DNA from: Dictyophora rubrovolvata
Taxonomy: Eukaryota; Basidiomycota; Agaricomycetes; Phallales; Phallaceae
Assembly: GCA_029959195.1 (NCBI GenBank)
Contig: CP114118.1
Span: forward strand, 992,001 to 1,056,000
Reading direction: 5' to 3'
DNA length: 64,000 nucleotides
The position numbers were made by a program, and so were the translations under genes. Positions 30,118-54,767 of this stretch are shown here, in pieces. The notes beneath the pieces are model-generated. The model made no database searches. It was not told the origin of the DNA and saw only the letters and a program-made list of their open reading frames with translations. How positions within the stretch are numbered: position 1 is the stretch's first letter; the number at the start of each line of letters is the position of its first letter.

Positions 30118-32764
30118 TTACTAAAAAAGGTTCGTGTATCAGATCTCGACATGTATACAAGTTTTTTTTTCAGTCAAACAATCAAATCAACTCTTACCGC
30201 TATTTCATACGGCTTCGTGTACAAATAGACTCCAGGCTGTCCCTTCAGCTTGGCTTCTGGAGTAATGACATTAAATCGAAGCGCCTTTCGCACGTCCTCG
30301 ACCATACTAGGCGGTCCCGCCACTGAATTAGTGCCCGAATCAACTTCAGCAACAAGCAACAGCAGAACCAGAAACTTCGAACACACACCATTTACTGAGA
30401 GATTAGTTTGAACCAGAGATAGTTTCTCCTCAAGCAGGTGTTTGATGTCCGGCCTTCCCGAAAGCATTGCAATTGTACCTTTTTCTATCGGAGTTGAGGT
30501 TTTCCCCCCTTCGGACGATGACGTCGCTGGTTTCGCTTCTTCTTCAATTTCACTGCTATCTTTTTCGTCTTTTGGTGTTCCGGTGGTGAGAGAAGGCAAC
30601 GAAGGCACAGACATGGCAGTTTGAGCTGTGTTATAGAGTTGGATCTTGATTTCTAGAGATGTTGGTGTGGTTTCGAGGATGTCTTGGAAGGAATCGAGGA
30701 TGTATGTTAATGTGTCTAATTCAGAGTCGTGTCAATACTGGTGAGTTAAGATGATATAGGCTGTTTTAACAGAAGACGCACTGATGTCTGGTGTTGATGT
30801 AACCCATACTAATAAAACGGAGGTACACACTGATCGTCTGTCTCGTACAGCCCTTTAAAGAAAGTTGTCATGAGAACCATCGTGGTTAATGAAAAGTTAT
30901 ATCACTGTACCGGACGGTTTCTCGTAACGCAGGCAATCCGAACGAAAGTCCAGAGCCACCTAATTAAAACAATGTGAGAAACACCGACAAGAGGAGAAGA
31001 AGAGGTAAGAGCATAAAGGACGGACCGGCGATTATCACGATATCAGAGAAAGAACTCAAATCTGGAGATGAGCCGTAAGGACCGTCTATAAACGCTCTGA
31101 ATCGGAATTCTTCATTTCGTTCCTGCGCTTCGGTGATTGAACGATACAAACGCCTCGTAAACCCATTTCTAACTCTAATAAGAAAAACAAGTTCACTGAG
31201 CGCGGTTTTTGTTTTTTCTTCCGGGAGGGTTACGATGGTGAAAGGGTGAGCTTCGAATGGGAGGATTGATACTTTGGAAAGGGTTATATATGCGCTTTGA
31301 CCGGCTTTCCAATTCATCTTTTGGTAAATGGTGAGTTTTATTAGGTCTGAGGAGATGATTTCAGCTTTGTTGAAGTTTGATGAGGAGCCTCGGCTGTTCC
31401 AGATAATTCGTATTGCGCGAAGCACTCTGTCGAATCCCCAAAAGAAAATTGCAGGCACCAAGTACGTCACGTTACTGTCAAGGGGAAAATCAGTATATGG
31501 TGACATGGAGATAATGAGACTCAGTTTTTAGACTTGCCCGCTTGATCCTTTGACGTGATAGTATGTGGCGATGAGAGCAACTCTGTGTATTAACAGCGTC
31601 GGCGGGTAAGTTAATTAGGCAGGCTCCGAATTTTGAAAGCAGAAAAGAACTCACAGGGACATGAAAAGATGGATTATGAATACGATGTTATAAAACCTCG
31701 CTCGTAAAGGTCTGATTAGGATAATAATGGATACTATCCACACGGCTACTGCAGCGTAACCTATTCGTAGCCATGCTGTTGACGCTTCATCAGGTGTTAC
31801 TCTATGGCGGGGGATTAGTTTTTTATCATGACTTCCCAGAGTTGTGAACACAGTTTACCCTAGATGTAACTAGTGGAAATAGTAGTCGAAAGTTGATCAG
31901 ACGCTTTAGCTGATTTATGTAAAGAAAGGCTTACCCTTCCGCCAGTATGCACTAAGAGAAGGATGAGAGAAACTCGGGCGATAGCTCGATGGAATATATG
32001 TAACTGTGGGGCATTTATAATGATGCAAAGGAAAAAGGAAAAAAAAAACCAGATTGAATGTACCTTTTCGAAACTGATTCCCGTGATGACTATGGAAACC
32101 ACGAGTTATTCCAGGAAAAATAATTGGGACAAGGTGAGGAGACGTACAAGATATCAAGTTACTCTTTCCAGAAAGAAGCACTAGAAGGGGCATGTGCGAT
32201 ATTGCGATATTACCTGCACGATTTGCATAAAACAGGGGGTCAAGTTTCAAGCCTGTATCCGAATTATAACCTGCAACAACGTCTTCAGCTTAATTTGATT
32301 GTAATGATGGAAAGGAAAAATGTACAGTTGATAAAAGTCCAGGTGAGAACCATAATTGTATACGCAACGACGATGAAGGTCTCTGCCCCGTTGATTCGAA
32401 GGGTGCTGCCTACAGGCACTGTGTAGCGATACAACAGTATCGATATAGTTTCACGAACAGCGGCCTCCAGTCTTCTCAGAATTCCCGTCTTCAAAGAAGA
32501 CGAACGGTGAACTTTTTCAGGATCATTTTCATCTCTTGTTTGTTTACGACTCGACGCTAGGGTTTTTTTTCGCTGTATTAGAAGGATCAAAATGTTCGTG
32601 AGATGAAGCAGAGACAAGAGTGCTAGAAAACTGGCTATGAGCCACCAAATTTGATTGGGATAGGCTATATTTCGTGCGAGACGTAAGGCTTTAGTAGGAC
32701 TGACGTTTGCCATTGTTGGGGGGAACTTCAGAAAATGAGGAAAGGGGGCTGATTTGGGAGACAT
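30118..32764 (-). CDS. Ferric-reductase-like flavocytochrome 2 (FRE family)
   Basis: Paralog of the neighbouring genes. Start at 32764, with a second in-frame ATG at 32713 that may be used. Segments in order: NIAYPNQIWWLIASFLALLS, TFIVVAYTIMVLTWTFINC, then GISFEKVQ-type loop spliced to LQIFHRAIARVSLILLLVH (heme), NKAEIISSDLIKLTIYQKMN, WKAGQSAYITL and HPFTIVTLP (FAD), LIRVRNGFTRRLY, DGPYGSSPDL, and a C-terminal NADPH part ending KPYEIA. Read without splicing the frame ends at 30174; with the GTAAGA donor after EIA spliced to an acceptor at 30121 the next codon is TAA (30118-30120), matching the RVA stop of paralog 1. Two palindromic ATCWGATAA sites lie upstream. Confidence 0.85.
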
Positions 32765-34383: not shown

Positions 34384-36849
34384 TCACTAGAAAAAGCATC
34401 AGCCAAACCACGTTATCAACTCGAAAGAAAAAAAGAAAACATTCTTACGGCAATTTCGTACGGCTCAGTATGCAGGTATACCCTCGGATACCCTTTCAGT
34501 GTCGCCTTCGGAGTGATATGTTCGAACCGGAGGGCTCTGCGCACGTCTTCCACCAAACCTCCTGGACCGGCAACTAATAATACCCATCCATCGCGATTTG
34601 GTGAGTTTTTGTCTCTAGTCGTTAGTTTTCGCGACATACCATTCACTGACACTGCATTCTCTCCACAAGATATTTCCTCTTCAAAAAGCGATTGAATGTT
34701 TGGTCTTCCACGAGTGAACGTTATCTGGTCAACCTCCGACTCGATTGGACTGGACGCCTTTTCCGTATAAGGTGAATAGGGTATCTTCTGATCTTCTTCT
34801 TTTTCCTTGTCAGGTACTTCAGTTAGAGACGCGATAGAGGATGTTTCACGAGTGGCATGCAGGCGTATACGGATTCGCAATGAAGGCGGCGCCTGTTGTG
34901 TCACTTCATTCAAAGACTCGAGAACCCATCCATAGTTACCCTCGACATCTGTTGATGATATTCGTCAATCAATTAAGCCCGCGCGCCTTGCCGTCAGCGG
35001 AATATAATGCCTACTGAGCTCTGCGGTGGCTACCGCCCAAACTAATAAAACCGATGTGCATGACGATTGATTGTTTTTAACATTTCTAGGGGTATGATGG
35101 TAAGCACATGTAACATGCATTCCGTACATAACTCACCTCGCAATGTTGAGCAACAGAGGCAATCCAAAGGAAATGCCAGAACCACCTACCCATCAAGGTG
35201 AGCAGGAAAATCGTTCGAGAAAACGGAACGCAAGACAAACCGGTGATAATGATGACATCAGAGAATGCCGCCAAGTGAGACGGAGAGCCATATGGACCGT
35301 CGATAAATGCGTTGAGCTGGAGTTCGTTGTTCCGCTCTTGCGCGATTGAGATAGCCTGGTACAAACGTTTCGTAAAGCCGTTTCTGACTTTAACGAGGAA
35401 AACGAGCTCGCTTGGTACGTCTGTCTCGGTTGTTGGAATAGTAGCAATCGTGAATGGGTGACTTTCGAATGGTAACCATGATATAGTCGGAATGGTAATG
35501 TACGCGCTTTGTCCGGCCTTCCAAGACATCCGCTGATAAATGCTCAGTTTGATCATGTCGGAGGATATGACTTCGGCTTTGATTGGACTTGGATGGATAC
35601 CCCTGTTGTTCCAGATAATTCGCGCAAGCCGGAGAACTCTATCCAATCCCCAGAAAACGTAGGCGGGGATCAAGTAATTCTGATATCTGTGAGTTTTTTT
35701 TGTCATTTTCAAGAGTTATTTTCTAAAGAAAATGCGATTTACCCTCCTGCTCCCATGATATGATAGTATAGGCCTATGGTGATCATCCTGTCGGTGATTT
35801 GACACTTTATTCCGCTAATCGGTCGAGAGAAGACATACAATGAAAACACAATGTGCACGGATACAAATATGTTGTAGTATCGTGTGCGCAGGGGCTTGAC
35901 GAACATGACCGCTACGATTACCCATGCTGAGAAGGCTGCGATTCCCATTCGTAACCATGCGTTGGTAATAACGTCGCTGCCCGTCAGTCTAAGGGGGGGA
36001 AAGTGGTTAACATCTTTCAATCAAGTAAGCATTGAGCAGTGTGATATTACCCTAAGCTGATCTAAACGCAGGCAATTTTTTTCGTCGGAATTTTGTTTGG
36101 ATCAAAGAATTCGGGAGTACGTACTCTTCCACCTGCATGGATTAAAATAAGGACGATGGCGAACCTAGCCATGGCGCGGTGAAGTATATGCAGCTAAAAA
36201 AATATTATTCTCATTAATCATGAACAGCGTCAAATTAGAAAACCTTTTCGAAACTGATTCCAGTTATAACTTTGGTAGTGATGAGCTCGAATAATTTGCG
36301 AGAGATAAATGGTAAAACATACGAGAGAGGAGATTATTTTTGCCAGAAAGGAGAACAATCAAGGGTATGTGTGAGGCGGCGATGTTACCCGCTCGATCCG
36401 CATAATAATTTGGATCGATTTTCAAACCTGTATCGCTATCATAGGCTATTGCAGCGTGAGTTGCATTTGGGTATATTTAAAATGGTGAAAAACTGACAAT
36501 TTACAAAGGTCCAGGTGAGAACGATGGCGATATATCCGGCGACGACGCTGATTTCAGCCCAGTTGACTCGATTATTGTTGCCGAGAGGAACGGTGTAACG
36601 GTAGAGCAGAATGGACACAGTCTCTTGGACTGCAGAAGGTAGACGTCTCAGAGAAATTTTGTCTGTGTTAATATCAGTTGTCTGTTCGGGATCTGTCCTC
36701 GCTGATTTATGTTTGCGGGGGAACAGGAGAGTCGTGAAATGGTGTAGAGATACGAGGGCGATGAAGGACGCTAAAAACCACCAGACCTGGTTGGGGTATG
36801 AAGTATCCCGTGCGTTACTCGAAATACTATTGACGTCGTCGCTTGGCAT
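34384..36849 (-). CDS. Ferric-reductase-like flavocytochrome 3 (FRE family)
   Basis: Third paralog, same orientation and exon plan as copy 2. Start at 36849 (MPSDDVNSISSNARDTSYPN). It has QVWWFLASFIALVSLHHF, AEISVVAGYIAIVLTWTFVN, YNIFVSVHIVFSLY, KAEVISSDMIKLSIYQRMSW, WKAGQSAYITIP, HPFTIATIP, VKVRNGFTKRLY, DGPYGSPSHL and a C-terminus ending EPYEIA. As in copy 2, a GTAAGA donor follows EIA; splicing to CTAG at 34387-34390 gives TGA at once, so the terminal exon would hold only the stop codon. Unspliced, the frame adds RMFSFFLSS. Two ATCWGATAA palindromes are upstream, at 37399 and 37446. Confidence 0.85.
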
Positions 36850-38040: not shown

Positions 38041-39059
38041 TTATCTCCTGACATAATACTGCTGCGGTTTCCAAGGCATCTCTTGAAGTGGCTCGTTGAG
38101 GGAGGTTTGGTCATATGCACCAGCGCCTTCGTCGTTCAGAGGAATGGTGATTCCGGAAACCATGTAAACGGATACGACGATGAATTCCATGATCAGAGCC
38201 ATGACCAAATAGATTTCCCATTTGCCGTTCGTTGTTGAGAATTCAGAGTTGGGGGGGTTAAAAGCGCTTAGTAAGGAGTAGGCGACTCGCACAGCGAGGA
38301 AGGGGAGGGCGATAGAAATATTGCGCAGGAACTAATTTGTTGGTTGAAAAGGGTGTGTTCATATATGAGATGAATATGAATGTCCTCATGGTGAATTTGA
38401 ACGGAACTTACTCTACGGTAGATGACTGGGAGTTCGCTTTTTACAGTCCACAGCAGCACATGAGTGGCGAAAATGGCTACATATCCGCCCAAGAAAAGGG
38501 CGGTGCCGATCTTGGTAAGATTGTGACCAGAGTTCGCTTTAGAAGCCGAATTGCCTGGTGCTTGGTCGAGTCCTCCAATGACGGCGAAGATGATACCGAC
38601 CACGAGTACGACTCGAACCAATTGTAAAATTCGGGAAAGGTTTGGTAAAGCTCTGTCAGATCTGTGGTGGTGATATATTAAGTACATGGCGTGATGGGTG
38701 ACGAATTAGCGCCTCTTACAATAGGGTTACGAAGGCATGTGTAGCCAGGAGTAGAGGGCTGAGACCAAGGGCTTGCAGGATTCCAGCTGCCGTCAGTACG
38801 CCCGATGATGGGTTCGATTCATCTTGAGAGAGTATGGTCAAAATGGCGCCCAGAGACCGAACTATAATACCGCAAGTGTTAGCTGAGAAACAGAACAGTC
38901 GAAACGACAGGGGGATTTACTTATGGAGAAGCCCAGAAGAAGAACCCAACCAGCTTTTCGAGTAAAACCATATCGTAATGTAACAAAAAACGCAATTAGT
39001 GCAACTGGGATGTAGACGACTACTTCAACAACGGCGAGTTTTCCAAAGTCATTTAGCAT
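38041..39059 (-). CDS. DUF7702-like multi-pass membrane protein A
   Basis: About five exons. It starts at 39059 (MLNDFGKLAVVEVVVYIPVA) and carries seven hydrophobic segments: VVVYIPVALIAFFVTLRYGF, GWVLLLGFSI, GLSPLLLATHAFV (after splicing), LVRVVLVVGIIFAVIGGLDQ, GTALFLGGYVAIFATHVLLW, FLRNISIALPFLAVRVAYSL and WEIYLVMALIMEFIVVSVYM. It ends in a short polar tail. The pattern RYGFTRKAGW, AILTILSQ-like turn, ATHAF, GG-D, R-AYS and MEF matches the fungal family I know as DUF7702; its function is unknown. It is head to head with a paralog at 40390, separated by 1.33 kb. Confidence 0.72.
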
Positions 39060-40389: not shown

Positions 40390-41325
40390 ATGACATTAGG
40401 TCCCTTCGGGAAAGTCGCAATTGCGCAAGTGGTCTTCTATATTCCAATCGCGTGTATCACTTTCGTTGTCGCTTTGAGACATGGATTTAGTCGAAGACTG
40501 GGCTGGCTGTTTATCTTCACCTTTTCAATGTGTGAGTAAAAATCACACCGCGCCCGTATATTCAACCAAATACACTAAACCTTAATTCAGTCCGTCTGGT
40601 TGGAGGCATATTGACAGTTGTCTCTCGGTCAGAGGCCAATCCCGCGGAGGGAATTGTCATAACAGCTGACGTGCTTACTGGAATTGGTTTGGCCCCTCTC
40701 CTATTAGCAACGCACGCTTTTGTCTCGGGAATGTAAGTAACTATCTATAGTCACAAAGCTGTCATTTACAAACCTTATTTCATTAGAGCCACTTCCATAA
40801 GTCATCCGCTTGAGCGACCGTTATCCACGTCCCGTCTACTCCTCATAGCCGGCTTGATCTTGGGTATTATCGGTGGTTCAGACGAGTCTCCTTCAAATGA
40901 CGCGTCGACTCAAAACACTGGAAGGACGTTAACCAAAGCGGCCGTTTGCTTATTCTTGGCCGTATACGTTATCCTTGTCCTCTTTCATCTGCTCTTGTGG
41001 AGAGAAAAACAGAGCATTGCCCCGAACTTCCGCAAAGTGAGTAGGAAACAAACAACCTCTGTATTTGCTCATCTAATATAATCGTTTCGTGTAGCTCCTT
41101 TCCGGTATCACGGTGGCACTCGTTCCGCTCTGTGTCAGGATCGTCTACAGTATGCTTTCAGACTTTGGCTCCCCAAGTAAATTCTCCCCGGTATTCGGCG
41201 AATGGCAATTCTTCGTATTCATGGGGTTGCTAATGGAGTATATCGTCGTGGTTATTTACATTGTCACTGGTCTTTCCATCCCAACCCATAAAGACGTGGA
41301 GGCCTCCGGATATCCTATGGCCTGA
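40390..41325 (+). CDS. DUF7702-like multi-pass membrane protein B
   Basis: Paralog of the gene at 38041-39059, with the same exon plan. Start at 40390 (MTLGPFGKVAIAQVVFYIPI). Segments: VVFYIPIACITFVVALRHGF, GWLFIFTFSM, FRLVGGILTVVSRSE, GIGLAPLLLATHAFV, LLLIAGLILGIIGGSDESP, AVCLFLAVYVILVLFHLLLW, GITVALVPLCVRIVYSML and WQFFVFMGLLMEYIVVVIYI. It ends VEASGYPMA. Shared landmarks with A are RHGF/RYGF, LLLATHAF, IIGG, LLLW, VRIVYS and ME[FY]IVV. A well-placed TATA box precedes it. Function unknown; membrane location is inferred from hydrophobicity. Confidence 0.74.
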
Positions 41326-42794
41326 ACACTGTCTCTCTCTCTTCTTCCGCCTGGACCGTACATTCGATGATATTCCTAAAATTCCGCATTAATTTGCTCC
41401 CCCTTTTTCATGTATTATGCCTCCCTAGTACATTATTTTTTTATGATTTTCTTACTTCGCTGACACTTGTATTCCTTACTTAACGACCACCGGTACATAT
41501 CTTCGAATCCTTCTTTTTGAGCTAGTAGGTTTGGCGAAAATCAGCCATTTCCTACTAACTTAACCGAACTATTTACAAAGTCGATGGCCTGGCGTGTAAG
41601 CATAGATATATAGTATAGAAAGCATGACGAGATTCGTCGTGAGATTGAATCACCGAGACGCAATGCGTTAAGCACACCCTTTGGGTATTTGTGTCTGACG
41701 GGGTCTCTTCTGTTGATGATGCCTAGTAGAACGACTCTTATTTTCTTCGGGGTCATTGATTTAATATTTGCGTTACTGATACCATGCATTTTTAATTAAT
41801 TATTGAGCATTTTTATTTTCGAAGTCTCTAATAGCTTTAATTGCTATAGAATTCTCGTCACTTACATTAATTGTATCTCATTAATGTAAAAAGCACGATT
41901 TCAGGATGCCCTCTGTGAATTTACAACCTTTCAAGTAATATCACAAGCTCTGAGTTCCAAATCCCGGTCTCTAAAACAGAACAGGGTTTTGGGACACATT
42001 GTTGGCAGACTTTTCAGCTTTACTTTGTCAGCTGTCACCATCTCGTTTCCACGTCTGGTTTCATTCACCAATTCCACGAGGCGACATGATTTTACGATAT
42101 GAACACCGTTAGTGAATTAGGCTGAGTGACAGGGTCTTGGATTGACAGTCAATGGAGACAACCAGTCCAAAATTCGCCGAAACTTTCCTCGTTCTTGAAG
42201 GAGAGGCTTAAGACCGGGCGCCGGCGTCAACTCCGACTCCGAGTCGCCGAGGACGAAGTGCTCAATTCCGACGAGGCGCTTCTCCGAAATAATCTTTTTT
42301 TAATGAGACACATGACAATTTGGACGATGTTCCACAACGAAGTCAACTGCCAGTGAAACAAATTCCGACGTTGTTGGGGGAGTTACCGTTTCAGCTTCAC
42401 ACTCTTTGTTCTAGCTTCAACAATGGTAATGTGAGTTCTTTTGCGACGTATCCCGTTACACTGATGTAATGCTGACTGGGAAATTGTCTCGTTTGCTGAA
42501 GGCCAGAGCCTATAGCTTATGCGGTTAACCAAGGTTTGTGACATTGTATGTTCTTTTCAAACCCGGGGCTGAAATCGCATGCAGAAAATGCTCCGAACCA
42601 ATCAAAGTGCGAGTCAACACTGGTTTACCATACATTCAATTTGATTGTTTGCAGTTTTAAAACCAAAACCCATCGAATTAGATCAAAGGCGAATGACAAT
42701 GGTTCTACGAAAGTAGTATTCAGATTAGACAATGTGTACGCTTTTCAGGTTTCAAGTATTAACACAGTTCAATCATACAATTTCCTACTAATAG
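41326..42794. other. Long intergenic stretch with small inverted repeats
   Basis: About 1.47 kb AT-rich. It includes the hairpins at 41831-41889. At 42580-42640 a plus-strand frame reads ACRKCSEPIKV, which recalls the first half of a Zn2Cys6 cluster but lacks the next cysteine in frame; this may be the DNA-binding exon, intact or decayed, of the regulator that follows. Confidence 0.4.
41862..41889. repeat. Perfect 10-base inverted repeat
   Basis: TTACATTAAT (41862-41871) and ATTAATGTAA (41880-41889) are perfect complements around an 8-base loop. A second, smaller one, ATAGC..GCTAT, lies at 41831-41847. Confidence 0.7.
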
Positions 42795-45257
42795 GGAGTC
42801 TTTGGATCTTCGAAAGCAACAGCAGGACAAATTGACTCAAATGTCGTTGCGTATTCAAGAGTTGGAAAAGGCTATCGCAGAATTGGTAAAGGACAATCCA
42901 ACAAGCAGCTCAGATTCGAGTTCGATTACTGGCAACCTGAGCGATATTCTCCAACTCGAATTGACCACGCCATCTGGAGACGAGTCTACTAGTAAAGAGG
43001 AAATGTCAAACGGCTTTCTCCTCAATGATCGAGATATGCTGGACGATTCCTTTGAATATAGTATCAGTCATTTACAGAACGATTATAATATGGAGTTGTA
43101 CGGACCGACAGGTGCTTCGGAGGTATGTATCATGATGTATGGCCACGGCGGTGCGCTTTTAGTTGACAAATACAGGATCATATGAGATTGTACAAAGAAA
43201 CAACTTGGCGCCATATACTTATTACGAGAATCAATGGATTAAAGCCACCAGACGACAGCTCGTCTGATTCAAGTCATTATCCTCCACATATATTTTTCCG
43301 AAGCCTTTTGTTCCCTTGTCCCCCACGAGATCAGGGCACATTAAATATCGACTCTTACACAGAATATCTTCCCTCGTATGGACGTGCCTGTGCCCTTCTG
43401 AATAATTATTTATACCACTTCAGCTGGTCGTAAGTACAAGTAATCCCTCTCAATGGCCATAATGATTGCTCGTTCACATCATAACTAGGTGCTTGATTGT
43501 TGCGATAGACGATTTATACAATTTAATCACCTATTTTTATCCGTCAAAATTGGCAGTTAAACCTTTGGAGCCTACGGATGCTCGGAAATTATCGCTTCTA
43601 TGCACCGTATTTCTGATTGGAACACTTTTTGATCTTGATTTGGATGCCGAAGCAATTGCTACTCAAGCGGAGCTTTTCCACCTTCTCGTTAGAGCGTCGC
43701 TGGCTTCCCACTGCTTTTCTGTTGAAACGACTGTTGAGGCGCTGCAATCATTGGTAAGAGTAGTGTATTATCAGGCTAAACTACGGTTTTTATTTATTGT
43801 CGTTTGGTTAGATTCTTCTGATATGGTTTTACCGTTTATGCCCAGGCGGAAGCTCGAGGTGCTCCTGTCTACATTTCTCGCCCTAATGGTGACATTATTG
43901 ACATCCCATCTAGTGCCAAGGAACGCTGGATTTTGTCAGGACCCATCCTAAAGCTCATTCAAGGGGTATGTTCATAATGTACTTTTGTTCTTGGCTTGTC
44001 AAAGACTGAAGGAGTAGTAGATTGGTCTGGGTTAGCGCGTCTGCCTTGCCTTTAAAAAGCATACTTCACAATCCTTTATTTAGATCGGAACAGTCGTCGG
44101 TATTTGACAGATGCCGAACAATGTAATCGGTTTGAACAACTCTTCTGGGAGTATAATGTTGTGGACATATGGCAGGTTTGTTTGCGGTCCCCCTCGTTCT
44201 CATTCTAATGTGGTCTAATGTCAACATACATATTTATTTTCAAGAGTTTCGCCTTAGGCCGTCCAACAACTGTCCCTCCAATATCGACTGTTTGTCAACT
44301 TCCTAGAAGTGTCAAACCCTTGGCACCATTCAAATCAGAATGTAAAAAAATAGAACTATCTGCATTTACGTTTGATTTGATTATCGTTTCCAGTTTACAT
44401 TTGGAAATACGACTTCGCGCGTTTATTGGCTGGGATTACCAGCCTTGGTGTTGAACGGCCTGCTGTATATGCCGATGTTTTAAACTTCGAGAAGCAGGTA
44501 CAAACGTTTCATGAGCCAATCTCATTGGAATGGCATAACAACTTCGTTGACGGTGAATTACCCGGAGCTGCATTACAAAGATTCATGGTCGCTGTGTTCA
44601 AACAATTGGGTGTGTTATAAATTTTTTAAGTCTTGTTCATTATTACAACACCCCCTTTATAATAGCCATGCTTTATTTGCACCGACCTTACTTCTGGCAT
44701 GCTACGTCAAAGAGTTGTTCTCAGCACAACGCTCTTGTCTTTTCACATTCTGTAGCTATGGTGTATAATAGGTAAGATTTCTCTGCTATAACCATTTTTT
44801 TTATAACGCACGAGTAATTTCGAAAGTGCATCAACTATTGTGACCTTGACGAAAGATGTCTGGCATATGCATCCTAAAACAGTCGAGCGGGTGACTCCCG
44901 TTTGGAGATATTGTGAGACAGCTACTGTACGGGTTTTTAAAGTCAACCACATCAGATTATGCTCCAGATTCTGACTCTAGTTCACTTCAGTTGATGCTGG
45001 GAGTGCTAGTCGTTCGCAATCCGGAGGGGCCGTTCGCAAAAAATGCTTTCAAAAAGATGGAAGAGGCCTGCGATGTGTTTCGTAATGCCAAGGAGTGCTT
45101 TCTCCCCCAAGCAGATACCGTAAGTGGTCCTAATACATAATGTTGATGTGATTGGTTTAAAGAAAACTCTTAGCAAAATCTGATAAGTATGTGCATGAAG
45201 GTGGGAGAGTCACTCGCCAAAGCTTCGCGTAGCGCGTCCGAGTCGTCAGCGAACTAA
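42795..45257 (+). CDS. Fungal_trans-domain transcription regulator (N-terminus unresolved)
   Basis: Begins in my model with a coiled linker (KLTQMSLRIQELEKAIAEL), then an acidic Ser-rich part, then the fungal-specific regulator domain: TWRHILITRINGL, LVRASLASHCFSVETTVEAL, ERWILSGPILKLIQGIGLDR, YLTDAEQCNRFEQLFWEYN, WQSFALGRPTTVPPI, YIWKYDFARLLAGI, MLYLHRPYFWHAT, LMLGVLVVRNPEGPFAKNAF and a final LISMCMKVGESLAKASRS, stop at 45257. The 10-nt exon 44021-44030 is needed to join QG to DRNSRRYL in frame. The zinc cluster expected upstream of the coil is not recovered; the first ATG in frame is at 42841. DNA target unknown. It lies between the DUF7702-like genes and the monooxygenase/formamidase palindrome and could regulate either. 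Confidence 0.7.
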
Positions 45258-45366
45258 AGTATTATTGTTCATGCACCTTTGAATCGACGTCAGTGAGAAG
45301 GTATAAATTAACGAATTAGACCGATCCAAATTCAGAATTTGAAGCCGTAACAGTAAGATATTTAAT

Positions 45367-45403
45367 CTCTCTCTTAGTAGTCGGACAGACGACTAAGAGA
45401 GAG
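45367..45403. repeat. 12-base perfect inverted repeat
   Basis: CTCTCTCTTAGT (45367-45378) and ACTAAGAGAGAG (45392-45403) are exact complements around a 13-base loop that itself holds AGTCG and a partial mate. It lies between the regulator and the left palindrome arm. Confidence 0.78.
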
Positions 45404-45744
45404 GTGACGCGCTTCGTAGTACGCGGTAATGCCAAATGGGCGTCACGTCGGTGTTCGTCCGCCCAATTCCACCCGGCTCTCAAGCATGGCGACGTTTTTT
45501 TTTTCGTGTTAGGAATGTCGAAAAGCTTGCATTTATTATATTCGATCAAAGTGGAAGAGCAATAAAATATCAATTGTACTGTATTACGACCAATACCCGT
45601 ATGCTACGCCGATAACCCTAAAGCACCTATGCGTGATGTCTCTACATGTCATTGAGACCATATTCGTTGTTCATAACGTTAAGACTCGTCAGCTATTCTG
45701 AAATGCCGCGCAACAGCACTTTGAAAGCACCGCTATGTCGCGGA

Positions 45745-47705
45745 GAACGGACAATGCTTAGTCAGCTCCATTTGAATCCCATTGGCGTTCTTTCAAAAAC
45801 TTTTTCGCACTTCTCGAGCGATATCACGCTTTGATGCCAGTCAAAGTAACCGACTGGTCAGAATTCGTTGTAAGCCAATTTCCATGTCAAACGGATTTTC
45901 CATGCGTAGTATGTATACAGTTCCTCCGATGAAACACTCTCCTTCTTTTCATTATTGCAGTATCAAGTTTTCCCAATTTCGACATGGACATGGAATTCTT
46001 GCGAGGCCGTCGGCTCTGGTTCGATTGAGAAGCAGTTCCAGCTCATAACGGGCCTTTTGTCATCAACATCAGAAGCTATTAGATGTCATTCTCGAGCTCA
46101 TCTCTTATAAAAAGAATTGGATAGTCAACCTCAGAATAACATCACATCACATCGTCCACTTTACACTACTTCTCAAATGTCGAACGAAACACAAGTTCTA
46201 GTCGTTGGTGCTGGTCCAACCGGATTGGCCGCCGCGATTGCATTAGCCCAAAAGGGTATTGACGTTCAGATCGTCGACGCCTCTTCATCGAACAAAAACG
46301 GTGCAAGAGCTGCTGTAGTCCACGCTCATACACTCGAGGTAAATAAGTAATCCACTTATCGATAATGATCATAATTCTAACACAGTCAACTTAAAGCTTC
46401 TCGATACTCTCGGAGCAGCGGATGCACTCATCCAACGAGGAATAAGATGCGACAGCATCAGTTTCAAATCTTCCGCCGAACATACCATTGTCAATGTTGA
46501 CATGGGCCTCATTGCCAAGTACACCCGCTACCCCTTTTCCCTTCTCATTTCTCAAAGTGATGTCGAAGGCATTCTACAGCAACATTTGGATATCCATGGC
46601 ATTCATATACAACGCGAGAAAGAAATCACAGGTATCAAGAGGATACACGACGCCAAGGCTGAAGTTTTATTCGCCGATAATTCGACTATTGTCACCAAAT
46701 ATATTATAGCCGCGGACGGCGCCCACTCTACGGTAAGTTTACGCATTCAAAGAACGTGATAATATAAGATTAGTACTGACATTGTAAACCGTAGGTCAGA
46801 CATTTGGTCGGGATAGACTTTAAAAATCCCCTGACGGGTGCATCTTACGACGAACCCAGCGATTCAGACGCATTCCAAATAGCATTGGCAGATGTATACC
46901 TCCAAGATCCTCTTCCCGAATTTCTTCCAAGAGATCAGCCGACATTCATGATAGACCGCTTCATCCTCATTATACCATTACCATCCCCAGACCCGAATAG
47001 ACTCATGTGGCGTATTGGCTTAGGCGTACCCTCTGGAAAGGGTGAAATACCACACAACCCATCAATCGAGTATTTCCAACAGGAAATTAACAAGCGTAGT
47101 CCTTTCAGTACTCCAATCACTATCTCTTCTATTCTCGTCTCATCTCGATATCGAGTTCGTGCTGCTCTAGCCGATACATATACGGCCAAGATTGGAAACA
47201 CGCACGTCTTGCTGATCGGTGATGCTGCGCATGTGCATTCACCTGTTGGTGGACAAGGCATGAATCTTGGAATATGCGACGCGATATCTGCTGCAAATAC
47301 GATTGAAGCACACTTGGAGGCGTCTAGCCCCGGGCGAAAAGATGCTGTTTTGATGACGTATGGGAAGAGACGACATGAAGCTGGTAAGCGGGTTGTTGGA
47401 ATGACGATGACGATGACGAAATTTTTGGCATTTGGGGCTGGGTCTGAATGGAAAGTGCGTTTGCGGAATATTGTGTTCAAGACTTTGATGAGCATCGGAC
47501 CGATTCGGCGACAGGCGGCATGGAGGGTGTCTGGGTTAGTCAATCGTCCAGACGATGTGTGAACAACCGGGAGACTGGTGAAAAGTCGGTCATGGATACG
47601 GCGTTTACAAAAAGGAATATTATTAGTATATAATTCTGTCCGTATATTTATGTAGATCATATATGTAATTGAACGATATCGTCTTTAAAGAATGGGACAA
47701 AGCAG
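45745..47705. repeat. Left arm of a large inverted duplication
   Basis: About 1.96 kb that reappears reverse-complemented at 51168-53142. It contains the monooxygenase gene A with some 430 bases upstream and 140 downstream. The coding part has the same length in both arms (1386 bases); small indels lie only in the flanks. Confidence 0.93.
46177..47562 (+). CDS. FAD-dependent aromatic-type monooxygenase A
   Basis: Exons 46177-46338, 46397-46732 and 46795-47562 join in phase to 421 residues. Group A flavoprotein hydroxylase: dinucleotide fold VVGAGPTGLAAAIAL (Gly11, Gly13, Gly16), the DG motif AADGAHSTVR (Asp161-Gly162), and the GD motif LLIGDAAHVHSPVGGQGMN (Gly308-Asp309) that binds the ribityl chain of FAD. 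The family uses NAD(P)H and O2 to hydroxylate phenolic or other aromatic substrates. At 421 residues it lacks the thioredoxin-like C-terminal domain of phenol-hydroxylase types. Start 46177 is the first ATG; the longer upstream frame begins only with TTG. Near-identical to the gene at 51313-52698 in the opposite arm. Substrate unknown. Confidence 0.9.
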
Positions 47706-48283
47706 TCTCATAGTAAGTAGCACCAGCGAGTGCCTGGAAGCATGGAGTCCTATACTCAATAGCTGGAACTGAGGTGTGAATAAGTCCAAGATGCGATGGG
47801 AAGGTTGGGTGCCGCTACTTGGCAAGTACTCGAGTACCCAGGCTCAGCCTGACGAGCCATCATGATGTCGTAATCATCACAGCGCGCTTTTCGCGTCCAA
47901 GCTCTAAAAATCCCGCCATTAATTTTCAGTGTCAAAGCTACAATATAAGATGGGAGAAGGCTCGGAAGAACAGAGTCACCTGGCATCCCAGCTTTAAGAA
48001 GCAGAGGCCCGACAGCCAATCAGAAAAAGCCCTCAGAGGACATTCCCTAGTCTCAACTTTCAAGACGGTGACCCGCTGATAAGCAACATTACCCGTTATC
48101 AAAAGGCTATCTTCTGGGATAAAGCAAGTCAACCAATGAGAATTCTGGCCTGATTCTGCACTTTCACCCGAAAGACAGGGCGTGTGAGACTGTATATTAA
48201 CTTGCAGCTCCCAGTCACTCAGGTAAGCTTAAACGTTAAACCACTACTACTGGCACTGTCCTTGGACAATCATACCCACTCCA
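47706..48283. promoter_or_regulatory. Left part of the spacer, upstream of formamidase
   Basis: 578 bases between the left arm and the formamidase start. It holds only short frames on either strand; presumed to contain the formamidase promoter. A CCAAT motif occurs at about 48133 and another just before the ATG at 48281. Confidence 0.45.
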
Positions 48284-50935
48284 ATGGCAACTAAGGCGAA
48301 TTCTGTACCTTACCCCACTCTTATCAAGGTAAGCGTATAAAACAAGCAAAACATTCTTTGTCTTATCCTCATACGTAGATTGATCCGTTTGTGTAAGTCC
48401 AAACTGTTTTCCACGGCACGATACATGGATGATAAGAATGACCAAATTTTCATTCTTGACGACTATGCAGACCAGCAGATCAGCAAAAGGTTCGACTTGT
48501 GCTTGAAATGATGAGAGACACTGCTGTACTCATTTACGTCGTTATTAGGGTCTTCATAATCGATGGCAGTAAGCAGAACTGTTCTTTCAGAAGATACAAC
48601 TTTCACACGGTTTTTTAGTCCCGAAATACCTCCCGTGGCAACTGTTAAACCGGGAGAGGTAATCAAATGTGTTGATCAAAAATTCAGTCATCTCAGAGCT
48701 AAATCCTTGTCTACCCTTCGTCTTAGGTTTTCAAGATCGAGTGTATAGGTGGGTTCCCGCATATTTTGCTTTAAGCAAAAGTTTCTTATCGTGAAATAAA
48801 TACCATCAGACTGGACTGGTGCCCAAATTGGCAATAACGATAGTACGTCGATTGCATACTTTCGCCTGCGAGGGATCGGATCAATTAAATTTGGCTCAGT
48901 TAGTGACGACATCAAGAACGTGGATCTGACCAAAGTACACAATTTGAGTGGTCCGGTAGCCGTCGAAGGAGCAGAGCCCGGAGATGCGCTAGTTGTGGAT
49001 ATTCTAGATGGTAATAAGAACTTCTGAACTGAGTAACCCTAATGATTTGATCGAGCTTCAAGTTACACCTTTTGAAAAAATGCCCTGGGGATATACGGTA
49101 TATCACAATTGGTTCTGGTTCTAGTATTCGTTACGCTCATCTACTAAACTTCAGGGCATTTTTGAGCTCACGAACGGAGGCGGTCTTTTCGGTAAGCTTC
49201 CTCTGACTTTAAGAACGCGTCGGAATTCTTTTGTACCTTTAATCCTTAGCCCGAGAATTCAACAGCAAAGCCTGTAAAGCTATTTGGGATCTCGAAGGTT
49301 TTTATTTTTTTTATTTTCGAACATTCACTGAAAATTCAACGACCTGTGAATAGGGATCTATGCATCTTCTCGTCATATTCACGGAGTCAAATTCGCTGGA
49401 ATTCCGCATCCAGGACTCATGTCTGTATCACCAGTTTTTCTTTTTCAAATACTCACAATTTGTTATATAGAGGGACTGCCCCATCACAAGAGCTCCTTGA
49501 TACTTGGAACACCCGTGAAGGGGAGCTCATTGCCCAGCACCTTCACGCCGTTCCAGCGGTTGCTTTCCCACCTGAGCCAGTTGGGGCATATGTTGGACAG
49601 GATCTTCCCAAAGACGTAATAGAGAAGATTGCAAAAGAAGGCGCAAGAACTATTCCCGGAAGAGAACACGGTGGAAATTGCGATGTACGTTGTGTTCGTG
49701 ATTAATTTGTCCCGCTTTCAATTGATTTGTCCTCTGCGTGCTAGATCAAGAACCTCTCCAAGTGCGTGTCACATATGCTAATATTAACCCTTCAGTCTCA
49801 ATATTTTGATCTTGAAGAGGATCGCGATGCTATTTCCCTGTTTTTATAAAGGGCGCCAATCTTTCCGTTGGAGATCTTCACTTTTCACAAGGAGATGTGT
49901 GTTTCCCGAATTTAAAATATCGTACTTCTCGTGACACAATTATTTTCTAGGGCGAGGTATGTCCCTCAACATCTTGATAGCATAATGCTGAAGTGGCATG
50001 CAGCTGTCTTTCTGTGGTGCAATAGAGATGGCCGGAATAATAACATTCAAGACTAGCATTATAAAGGGAGGCGTTGAAAAATTCGCTCTCAAACAGCCTA
50101 TTTTCCTTGTATGTATTTTTTTTGTCAAATAGTCACAAGGCATTCAAAAGGAATAGCCATCACCTGTGGATCCTGTATACTCCGCGAAGGTGAGATTACA
50201 AGTCAGATGTAGCTATATGCTAGTGAAAATATTTGCAGCTTGTATTTGAAGGAATCAGCGTGGACTATCGTAAGTGATTGGGTATTATCAAACCTTTTTG
50301 ATTGACGTTTTTTGTAGACGGAGATGGTAAACAATATAACATGGACGCGTGAGTTTCAAAATTCAGCATTATTCAAGTGTTCGTTGTTAAGACCGGGCGT
50401 TATTATAGAACGGTCGCCTACAAGCAAGCAGCTCTCAACGCCATCGCGTATTTACAGAAAGTGAGCTTGTATCGTTGATAAGCTTGATTAAACTCAGCTT
50501 TCGATAGTTAGGCTACAGTGTGTTTTAGCCGCTTATATCTTGATTGTAGTACTAAAAGCTGCGTCACGCAACTAGCTCGCGAACAAGCATGTGAGTAAAT
50601 TCGCATATAACTAATAACTTCCATGTTCTTATTTTGTCCTATGCATGTAGATCTGCTTCTCTCCGCTGCGCCGATAGAAAGTCATATCGGAGCCATTGTC
50701 GTAAGCATACAAATAGTAGAACAGCACTTTCTCGGTTCAACGAAATACTAGGATTCACCAAACGCATGCGTTACGTTAGCGTTACCTATTGGAATTTTCG
50801 AAAACGTGCGTATAATGTTACCCTTTTCAAAATTTGACTCGTTAAGATTTGTTTTAGGATATTCTGCCGAAACCGGAAGGACTCACCAAGAACGATTATG
50901 GCCAATGTGCTATCAGGAGTGACGGGGTGCTTTAA
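48284..50935 (+). CDS. Formamidase (FmdA/AmdA family)
   Basis: Cytosolic amidase expected to hydrolyse formamide to formate and ammonia. About 25 tiny exons: MATKANSVPYPTLIK, IDPFVPADQQK, GLHNRWHPEIPPVATVKPGE, VFKIECIDWTGAQIGNNDS, SDDIKNVDLTKVHNLSGPVA, EGAEPGDALVVDILDV, MPWGYTGIFELTNGGGLF, IYASSRHIHGVKFAGIPHPG, GTAPSQELLDTWNTREG, REHGGNCDIKNLSKGSR, GANLSVGDLHFSQGDGE, FCGAIEMAGIITF, KLVFEGISVD, GDGKQYNMDATVAYKQAALN, REQAYLLLSAAPIESHIGAI, DSPNACVTLALPIGIF, stop at 50935. All conserved formamidase blocks are present, so the gene appears intact; the join between AYLQK and REQAY is the only one I could not settle. A 6-nt exon at 49951-49956 supplies Gly-Glu. It lies alone in the spacer of the inverted duplication. 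Confidence 0.88.
49951..49956 (+). other. 6-nt microexon of the formamidase gene
   Basis: GGCGAG, flanked by TTTTCTAG and GTATGT, encodes Gly-Glu and completes the family motif SQGDGE before LSFCGAIEM. Both flanking introns have ordinary ends. Confidence 0.75.
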
Positions 50936-51312
50936 GATCGAGTAATATGTATCGTTGGCAGATCTATGTAATGTAACTGTAGCATTTGTCTGAGAATTAC
51001 GAATATCCTGGACCTGCAAAGAAAGAATATGACGCGATACAAAAATTGATTGCCCCCTGCTATGAATATATTGGATTCAATGAATATATCGATACTTGGG
51101 ATAATTATTCAACTATTTAGGTACGTATTCTCCAGTTGCGTATACATCGCTCTCAGTTATCCAAACGCTGCTTTGTCTCATTCTTTGACGACAACATCGT
51201 TCAATTAAATGACATGAAAATATATGGACAGAATTATAGAATTATATACTAATAATATTCCTTTTTGTAAACGCCGTATCCATGACCGACTTTTCACCAG
51301 TCTCTCAGTTGT
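50936..51312. other. Convergent gap between formamidase and monooxygenase B
   Basis: 377 bases; the right arm of the duplication begins inside it at about 51168. No gene seen. Confidence 0.5.
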
Positions 51313-53142
51313 TCACACATCGTCTGGACGATTGACTAACCCAGACACCCTCCATGCCGCCTGTCGCCGAATCGGTCCGATGCTCATCAAAGTCTTGAAC
51401 ACAATATTCCGCAAACGCACTTTCCATTCAGACCCAGCCCCAAATGCCAAAAATTTCGTCATCGTCATCGTCATTCCAACAACCCGCTTACCAGCTTCAT
51501 GTCGTCTCTTCCCATACGTCATCAAAACAGCATCTTTTCGCCCGGGGTTAGACGCCTCCAAGTGTGCTTCAATCGTATTTGCAGCAGATATCGCGTCGCA
51601 TATTCCAAGATTCATGCCTTGTCCACCAACAGGTGAATGCACATGCGCAGCATCACCGATCAGCAAGACGTGCGTGTTTCCAATCTTGGCCGTATATGTA
51701 TCGGCTAGAGCAGCACGAACTCGATATCGAGATGAGACGAGAATAGAAGAGATAGTGATTGGAGTACTGAAAGGACTACGCTTGTTAATTTCCTGTTGGA
51801 AATACTCGATTGATGGGTTGTGTGGTATTTCACCCTTTCCAGAGGGTACGCCTAAGCCAATACGCCACATGAGTCTATTCGGGTCTGGGGATGGTAATGG
51901 TATAATGAGGATGAAGCGGTCTATCATGAATGTCGGCTGATCTCTTGGAAGAAATTCGGGAAGAGGATCTTGGAGGTATACATCTGCCAATGCTATTTGA
52001 AACGCGTCTGAATCACTGGGGTCGTCGTAAGATGCACCCGTCAGAGGATTTTTAAAGTCTATCCCGACCAAATGTCTGACCTACGGTTTACAATGTCAGT
52101 ACTAATCTTATATTATCACGTTCTTTGAATGCGTAAACTTACCGTAGAGTGGGCGCCGTCCGCGGCTATAATATATTTGGTGACAATAGTCGAATTATCG
52201 GCGAATAAAACTTCAGCCTTGGCGTCGTGTATCCTCTTGATACCTGTGATTTCTTTCTCGCGTTGTATATGAATGCCATGGATATTCAAATGTTGTTGCA
52301 AAATGCCTTCGACATCACTTTGAGAAATGAGAAGGGAGAAAGGGTAGCGGGTGTACTTGGCAATGAGACTTATGTCAACATTGACAATGGTATGTTCGGT
52401 AGAAGATTTGAAACTGATGTTGTCGTATCTTATTCCTCGTTGGATGAGTGCATCCGCTGCTCCGAGAGTATCGAGAAGCTTTAAGTTGACTGTGTTAGAA
52501 TTATGATCATTATCGATAAGTGGATTACTTATTTACCTCGAGTGTATGAGCGTGGACTACAGCAGCTCTTGCACCGTTTTTGTTCGATGAAGAGGCGTCG
52601 ACGATCTGAACGTCAATACCCTTTTGGGCTAATGCAATCGCGGCGGTCAATCCGGTTGGACCAGCACCGACGACTAGAACTTGTGTTTCGTTCGACATTT
52701 GAGAAGTAGTGTAAAGTAGATGGTGTGATGTGATGTTTCTGTTACTGCTGTTGCGTTGTTGCTCTGAGGTTGACTATCCAACTCTTTTTATAAGAGATGA
52801 GCTCGAGGATGACATTGGAATGACATCTGATAGCTCCTGATGATGATGACAAAAGGCCCGTTATGAGCTGGAACTGCTTCTCAATCGAACCAGAGCCGAC
52901 GGCCTCGCAAGAATTCAATGTCCATGTCGAAATTGATATTACGATGAAGTGTTTTATCGGAGCTGTATACATATTACGCATGGAAAATCCGTTTGACATG
53001 GAATTTGGCTTACAACGAATTCTGACCAGTCGGTTACTTTGACTGGCATCAAAGCGTGATATCGCTCGAGAAGTGCGAAAAAGTTTTTAAAAGAACGCCA
53101 ATGGGATTCAGCCCAATGGAGCTGACTAAGCATCGTCCGTTC
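51168..53142. repeat. Right arm of the large inverted duplication
   Basis: About 1.98 kb, reverse complement of 45745-47705, with a 3462-base spacer between arms. The last 700 coding bases are almost identical between arms, while differences cluster in exon 2 and the start of exon 3. Confidence 0.93.
51313..52698 (-). CDS. FAD-dependent aromatic-type monooxygenase B
   Basis: Near-identical copy of the gene at 46177-47562: same exon sizes, 421 residues, all FAD motifs intact (VVGAGPTGLTAAIAL, AADGAHST, LLIGDAAHVHSPVGGQG). I count about nine amino-acid differences, for example Ala to Thr in the dinucleotide fold, Cys to Tyr and Ser to Asn in the IRCDS/IRYDN segment, Ala to Thr after KSS, Met-Gly to Ile-Ser, Asp to Asn in HLDIHG, Glu to Asp, and Ser to Asn in EASSPG. 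None hits a known cofactor residue, so both copies may be active. It has the same TATA-like TCTTATAAAAAG upstream. Convergent with the formamidase. Confidence 0.9.
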
Positions 53143-54767
53143 AACGTCCGCGAGCTTTCACCAGTAACGGGAACGGCCTCAGCGAATGTAAGTAGGAAGT
53201 GCTTATGATGATGATCGGAGGACTTAGATGTTTTTTTGCGATTCGTCTTTTCAATACGTCGTTGTTATTGATGATAAATGGATATGGGCAACTTGTAGGA
53301 ACGTACCAAAAACGCACTTGTTGTGAAAATATCGTCATCATTAAGATTATACCAGCCACAAATACTGAAATCGAACAAGTGTCGAGGGCACAACTTTCAC
53401 CATCATTTCTATAGAAGATCCATAGTGAGTGGAGAATCGAGATTCCATCTCATATTTTTTGTGGTTACAGTTCTTTGGGGCGTAAATCAAGCGATTAATC
53501 TATTCGGGTTGGTAAACGGGAAAAATATTCCCGTTTTGGAGAGTAAGTTTGGTAGCCGATGATCTACCCAGATTGAGACCTTCCACTGAGAGGCTGAAGT
53601 TGGGTTGAGATCCTATCTCCCCGGCCCTGGGAAAAGTTAAACGTGGAGTTATACGGTAGAACGAATATGCCGTCAAGGGGAAGCCGCCGCTTTATACATA
53701 ACCTTTGACCTACAGTTGTTACTGGTCCAACTAGCTCCATATTCTTCTTGGAAGAATTCCGGGAACGAAGTGAGGCTTGGGAACACCCGAGCGAAAATAC
53801 ACCGAATGACACGTCTATACAACCCTGAAATTAACGTAAAAGATAAGGCTAAAACGTAATGTTCTCGCAGTGCGCCCAAAAATAAGGTGTTCCGGGTAGT
53901 TCAAGTTGTAGGCAATCAAATTCTACCAGAATTTGAAAGCAGGCGACACTCTCCCGTCGATATATGGCATCTTATTTGGTGTAAACATACTTTCAAGACA
54001 CGGAAAATGTCATCAGAAGAAGGAGACTACGCAAGAATAAAATGTAGCATCAAAGGGAAGTGATATTCACAAAGCTCACAGGTGCATACATGTATTGCCT
54101 ATTTATATTTGCACCATTAAACCATTCATCCGCTCCCAAGCCTTCATCTACGTAATCCTTGTACATAAATTATATTCGTGGTTTTGAAAGGAAGGATGCG
54201 CCAATTCTAGGTAGCATAAGTGCATTCATACACTCAAAGGGAAAGTTGTAAGGAGGGTCGACTGCCGCCGTCAGTACTAATACACCATTTCATGGGACTG
54301 AGATTGGACGTGCATCATTATGTGAGCTCAATGCACAGAGTGCATGCGAATCAACATATTGAGACCAACCTCATCCCAGGAAACTTTAGAGATATGACTG
54401 TGGACGAAGGTGTCATTGAACGACGACGGTCTTACTGAGAGCATACACACCTTTATAGACTTTCCAACACTGAATATTACAAGGGTATCAAAGAAATGCA
54501 CCCTTCCATTCCAGACTCACCCAGTTCTTTAAGCTCGTGTGTCTAGGGCGTTTTGTCCCCCAATATTCAACACCCCGTGTATCACGCCTTCCATATTTGC
54601 AGTATATAACCAGTAAGGGAAACACTTGTATACATACTTGCTCTAGTTGGAACTGGTCATAAAGAGGTTCACGGCATTTCAGCAATTTACGATGCAGATA
54701 AAAAAAAATACAGTTTTATAAAAATTCTAGGAACTACACATATTTCAAAACAAGACAAAAGGAAAAA
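53143..54767. other. Gene-poor stretch
   Basis: 1.6 kb to the right of the inverted duplication. Open frames are short and unlike any family I know. A small hairpin, ACGGGAA..TTCCCGT, lies at about 53516-53534. Could be decayed sequence next to the duplication breakpoint. Confidence 0.45.

Follow-up and report, generated by a model that had tools for sequence, protein, structure and literature searches.

Results

An inverted duplication around a formamidase gene

Does a flavin monooxygenase gene that occurs twice, in mirror image, on either side of a single formamidase gene point to a shared catabolic route, or did duplication and recombination produce this arrangement with the formamidase as a bystander? 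The locus lies on contig C2 (992001-1056000; this 64 kb stretch is the window, and positions are counted within it unless a contig is named) in a single assembly of a single genome, which comprises 28.2 Mb in 11 contigs. The mirror arrangement described in the first-pass annotation is confirmed both by gapped alignment and by self-BLAST: the left arm of the inverted repeat (45738..47705, forward strand) and the right arm (51168..53153, reverse strand) face each other, are about 2 kb long each, and align (45738-47705 against 53153-51168) over 2,020 columns, 134 of which differ, 48 as substitutions and 86 as gap columns. A mechanical repeat search reports the pair as an inverted block of 1,500 nt at 98%, with three shorter blocks besides. 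The sole other inverted pair of at least 40 nt reported in the window is 53 nt long at 72%, and self-BLAST of the 104 kb around the locus, at limits of at least 150 bases and E 1e-10, returned only the arms, a third copy matching each arm (about 73%) and one direct pair (68%). The arms thus lie far beyond what chance would give. The spacer between them (47706-51167) measures 3,462 bases and contains one intact formamidase gene, in agreement with the 3.46 kb segment holding a formamidase alone that had been described.

Near-identical inverted sequence is a common spot for misassembly, and one could suspect on this ground that the assembly doubled a single arm. The substitutions and indels that separate the arms speak, however, against a single sequence entered twice; moreover, a genome search with the sequence inside the left arm's inner end gave no second copy, and one with the sequence outside the right arm's outer end gave none beyond the arm itself. 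We give an assembly artefact almost no credence.

The monooxygenase genes and their upstream regions

Gene A occupies 46177..47562 on the forward strand (exons 46177-46338, 46397-46732 and 46795-47562), and its mirror copy, gene B, occupies 51313..52698 on the reverse strand (exons 52698-52537, 52478-52143 and 52080-51313). The earlier claim of a complete 1386-base monooxygenase gene in each arm is correct in that both copies are complete, but neither is a single open frame: each has three exons and two introns, a coding sequence of 1,266 bases including the stop, and 421 residues. In a Pfam scan, gene A matched FAD_binding_3 (PF01494) with an E value of 8.8e-55 and 186.8 bits against a cut-off of 22, and inspection by eye of both translations located VVGAGPTG, ADGAHSTVR and GDAAHVHSP, which we take to be the N-terminal GxGxxG, DG and GD motifs of class A flavin monooxygenases. 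While gene A is thus like the class A flavoprotein monooxygenases in its profile score and FAD-binding motifs, none of the 25 NCBIfam families listed, of 74, was over its cut-off. Its best-scoring solved chain, among the 60 listed of 123 matches, is 4k5r, an "Oxygenase", and rifampin monooxygenases are also found among those 60; a megablast search of gene A against plasmids gave no match. Judged from their sequences, A and B are ordinary class A flavin monooxygenases, which presumably use FAD and NAD(P)H to oxygenate a substrate of aromatic or similar type. The earlier idea of a substrate that yields formamide gains nothing from these family matches, which reach only as far as "class A flavin monooxygenase". 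The two proteins differ at 9 of 421 residues, with a dN of 0.009 against a dS of 0.041 (NG86), and we propose that both copies have been kept open under purifying selection.

Each arm also includes about 400 bases of sequence upstream of the monooxygenase gene. The annotation had placed a promoter in each arm, which holds to the extent that both carry a similar upstream region, but the two regions are not identical, differing by 14 substitutions and 8 gap events over the 373 aligned bases of the outer flank. In the region upstream of gene A (45738..46176, forward strand), TATAAA stands 71 bases before the ATG and CCAAT 302 and 204 bases before it, whereas the region upstream of gene B (52699..53153, reverse strand) has TATAAA at 94 bases, lacks both CCAAT elements of A, and has one of its own 120 bases before the ATG, within an 11-base insertion. 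The greater distance of TATAAA from the ATG in B is mainly due to a 24-base insertion that follows it. Doubled expression of the monooxygenase is possible with such an arrangement.

The spacer gene and the question of a linked pathway

Formamidase converts formamide to formate and ammonia. The spacer gene (48284..50935, forward strand) encodes 421 residues plus a stop in 26 exons separated by 25 introns of 47-78 bases each, in a model whose splice sites were picked by hand and checked by open reading. Such introns suggest a fungal genome, and their density a probable basidiomycete. It scores 585.2 bits against the NCBIfam equivalog NF045496 (cut-off 500), and residues 12-407 of 421 align with the solved formamidase 2wkn, its best solved relative, with an E value of 2.3e-141. 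Compared with FmdA (PF03069, NF045496), the predicted protein is alike and over the equivalog cut-off, the sole difference noted being the 25 short introns, and it reads as an ordinary formamidase. One of the hand-spliced exons, at 49951-49956, is only six bases long and contributes to the stretch DGELSFCGAIEMAG, which aligns with 2wkn.

The adjacency of the genes, and a spacer that reads as a single formamidase gene, could be taken as a sign that the two enzymes belong to one linked catabolic module, in which the substrate of the monooxygenase later gives formamide. At the other loci found in this genome, however, the pairing is absent: there is no formamidase near any of the 3 other monooxygenase loci found (the third copy on C2, and one each on C4 and C8; at least three such loci exist), and no monooxygenase of this type near the 1 other FmdA_AmdA locus found (on C6; at least one exists). 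Bacterial formamidase loci gave the same picture, as none of 80 (the best 80 of 587) had a monooxygenase homologue within up to 8 kb on each side, at E 1e-3 and also at E 10, when open frames of at least 150 residues were searched in loci of which 62 of the 80 spanned at least 12 kb and a few less than 5 kb. A control query with the formamidase matched 80/80 of these loci, and the same search program does match bacterial solved chains when given the monooxygenase. The named neighbour genes, too, are non-catabolic, and the pairing appears neither in the literature matches listed nor in the available text of PMC3948071 and PMC5362632. The linked catabolic route put forward in the first-pass annotation is thus very unlikely on these counts, and the locus indicates no new pathway. 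According to the part of PMC10781810 that was available, formamide is formed from histidine and cyanide in some microorganisms, so a formamidase would have a role without any monooxygenase.

The third copy of the monooxygenase gene bears on the same question. It lies at C2:1069557-1070989 (equivalent to 77557-78989 in window numbering), outside the window and about 24 kb past the right arm, and is 73.5% identical to A at the DNA level. Aligned with A, its exon 1 shows a gap of 8 bases and its exon 3 an insertion of 4; because the coding frame changes inside both of these exons it looks like a pseudogene, although unusual splicing is possible. Of two more relatives, the one on C4 reaches 46% protein identity over its longest stretch and the one on C8 is weak. 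Since the frameshifted copy is far from any formamidase match (about 26.6 kb from the spacer gene), the monooxygenase gene evidently duplicates without the formamidase and, as we read it, also decays independently. From this pattern, seen in this one genome and in bacteria, the formamidase would be a probable bystander trapped between the arms. A Thi4 gene (L006:295-966) lies to the left of the third copy.

Distribution of the differences between the arms

Differences between the arms were counted over an ungapped core of 1,491 bases (46138-47628 against 52737-51247). Only 26 were found, 25 of them transitions; 21 fall in coding sequence, where 12 are silent and 9 change the protein. They are far from evenly placed. 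The main diverged patch (46449..46589, forward strand) contains 13 of them, 7 silent and 6 amino-acid-changing, and a second patch (46830-46875) contains 5, while the longest tract identical between the arms (46876..47326, forward strand) extends over 451 bases and further identical runs cover 46590-46829 (240 bases), 47328-47567 (240) and 46229-46448 (220). These tracts exceed what an even spread of the differences would give, as looked for in a homogenised inverted repeat, and the longest run has a P of 0.002 when all sites are considered. The introns do not differ at any of 120 bases, and the inner (3') flank differs at 8 of 70 aligned bases with 3 gap events; the flanks are thus more diverged than the genes, and carry indels.

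Such clustering fits recombination, in the form of gene conversion, between the arms. It might also have arisen after a recent duplication from ordinary mutation under selection, with the clustering due to chance and constraint, or to assembly polishing, and conversion playing no part. Exon 3, for instance, is perhaps under stronger constraint, and consensus polishing may render tracts of near-identical repeats falsely identical. In a test restricted to silent sites (12 differences over 538 sites, introns counted), the single longest identical run by itself had P 0.018, which leaves some room for this alternative; the two longest runs jointly, however, gave P 0.003, and the three longest jointly were matched in 0 of 200,000 shuffles, under a test that assumes equal mutability per site, scores only transitions as silent and was devised once the clustering had been seen. 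As several tracts remain clustered on silent sites and introns alone, we regard an origin without conversion as unlikely, though a serious contender, and our preferred reading of the clustered differences is that the arms have undergone gene conversion centred on the genes.

Separately, we observed that at 20 of the 26 core differences arm A has G or C where arm B has A or T, in mixed sequence contexts. This skew has a two-sided binomial probability of about 0.009, calculated by hand, and plain conversion does not account for it. Repeat-induced point mutation was considered in view of the 25 transitions among 26 differences and rejected, as the bases beside the changed sites are mixed by eye and show no single-context signature. 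Polarisation by the third copy, a poor outgroup at 73.5% identity, places the derived state in B at 13 of the 26 differences and in A at 9, and leaves 4 unclear. The third copy was likewise rejected as the donor in a conversion of the diverged patch, since within the patch its states match A at some sites and B at others.

Origin of the arrangement and known counterparts

We consider it likely that the locus arose as follows. One class A monooxygenase gene, together with its upstream region, would have been duplicated as an inverted segment on the far side of an adjacent formamidase gene unrelated to it. Purifying selection would have kept both copies open, while gene conversion since then moved sequence between the arms, so that identical tracts now alternate with diverged patches. 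The duplication would raise or diversify the dose of the monooxygenase, with the formamidase enclosed as a bystander.

On this account the locus fits a known kind, the homogenised inverted gene pair. In Caenorhabditis, gene pairs in inverted repeats are kept alike within species, as seen by comparing three species (PMC1803023, available part), and the present locus shares with them near-identical inverted homologous genes in homogenised-looking arms. The Caenorhabditis pairs described there are divergent or convergent, and ours is convergent; their spacers measure a few hundred bases, whereas the spacer here is 3.5 kb long, holds an unrelated gene and is known from one genome. The second counterpart is the flip/flop region on chromosome XIV of Saccharomyces, where, in the available text of PMC9731477, arms of 4 kb enclose 24 kb with 15 genes, a segment that occurs in both orientations. 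Both that region and the present locus have a unique segment between near-identical, gene-bearing, homogenised inverted repeats, although the arms here are 2 kb long and enclose 3.5 kb with one gene, in the one orientation seen.

Inversion of the spacer is possible with this geometry, and one could speculate that recombination between the arms inverts the formamidase segment, so that both orientations occur in the species. The resemblance to the Saccharomyces region (PMC9731477, in the part available) and the mosaic arms, which hint at recombination between them, lend this some appeal. Against it stand the single orientation in a single genome and the stability of the yeast orientation on laboratory timescales, as stated in the same portion of that report, and we find it doubtful that the segment flips. 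Still more speculative, and with slender prospects, is a combined picture in which a flip/flop device operates together with conversion that keeps the bulk of the monooxygenase uniform but lets 46449-46589 (residues 72-119) diverge, giving two enzymes of different substrate preference under differently built promoters.

The locus is a small, clean case of inverted gene duplication in which identical and diverged tracts form a patchwork, apparently in a fungal nuclear genome, and it could serve for tests of how arms at short range convert and invert.

Flanking genes and edges of the arms

In the left flank, 4 of 10 fragments had a Pfam family over cut-off (DUF7702 twice, FAD_binding_8 and NAD_binding_6), as did 6 of 10 in the right flank and beyond (BRCT types twice, GET4 twice, Tim10/DDP and Thi4). 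The DUF7702 gene fragments, at 38271-38705 (reverse strand) and 40737-41078 (forward strand), are divergent. A regulator gene at 42763-45137 was considered and rejected: the fragments there had no Pfam family over cut-off, and a six-frame pattern search of the window, which intron-split stretches would escape, turned up nothing resembling Zn2Cys6.

A transposon at the edges was rejected as well, on searches with the left flank, the inner end of the left arm and the right flank. The stretch at the inner end of the left arm matched only itself in its own genome, in a search that overlooked even its brief mirrored counterpart within the right arm and that short or diverged copies can therefore escape; the one match to the right flank was the left arm's mirror end. 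Beside the left arm, at 45353-45472, is a short element with a hairpin stem of 12 base pairs, pieces of which recur at 4 more places (C4, C6 twice and C7) with 77-80% identity. It looks like a small dispersed repeat, and since it lies outside the arm and has no mirror at the right arm, it does not account for the duplication.

The direct pair 31024-31443 / 35239-35655, 68% alike, lies in apparent tandem ferric-reductase genes: the 35239-35655 copy matches FAD_binding_8 and, farther downstream, NAD_binding_6, and near 31024-31443 NAD_binding_6 is just under its cut-off.
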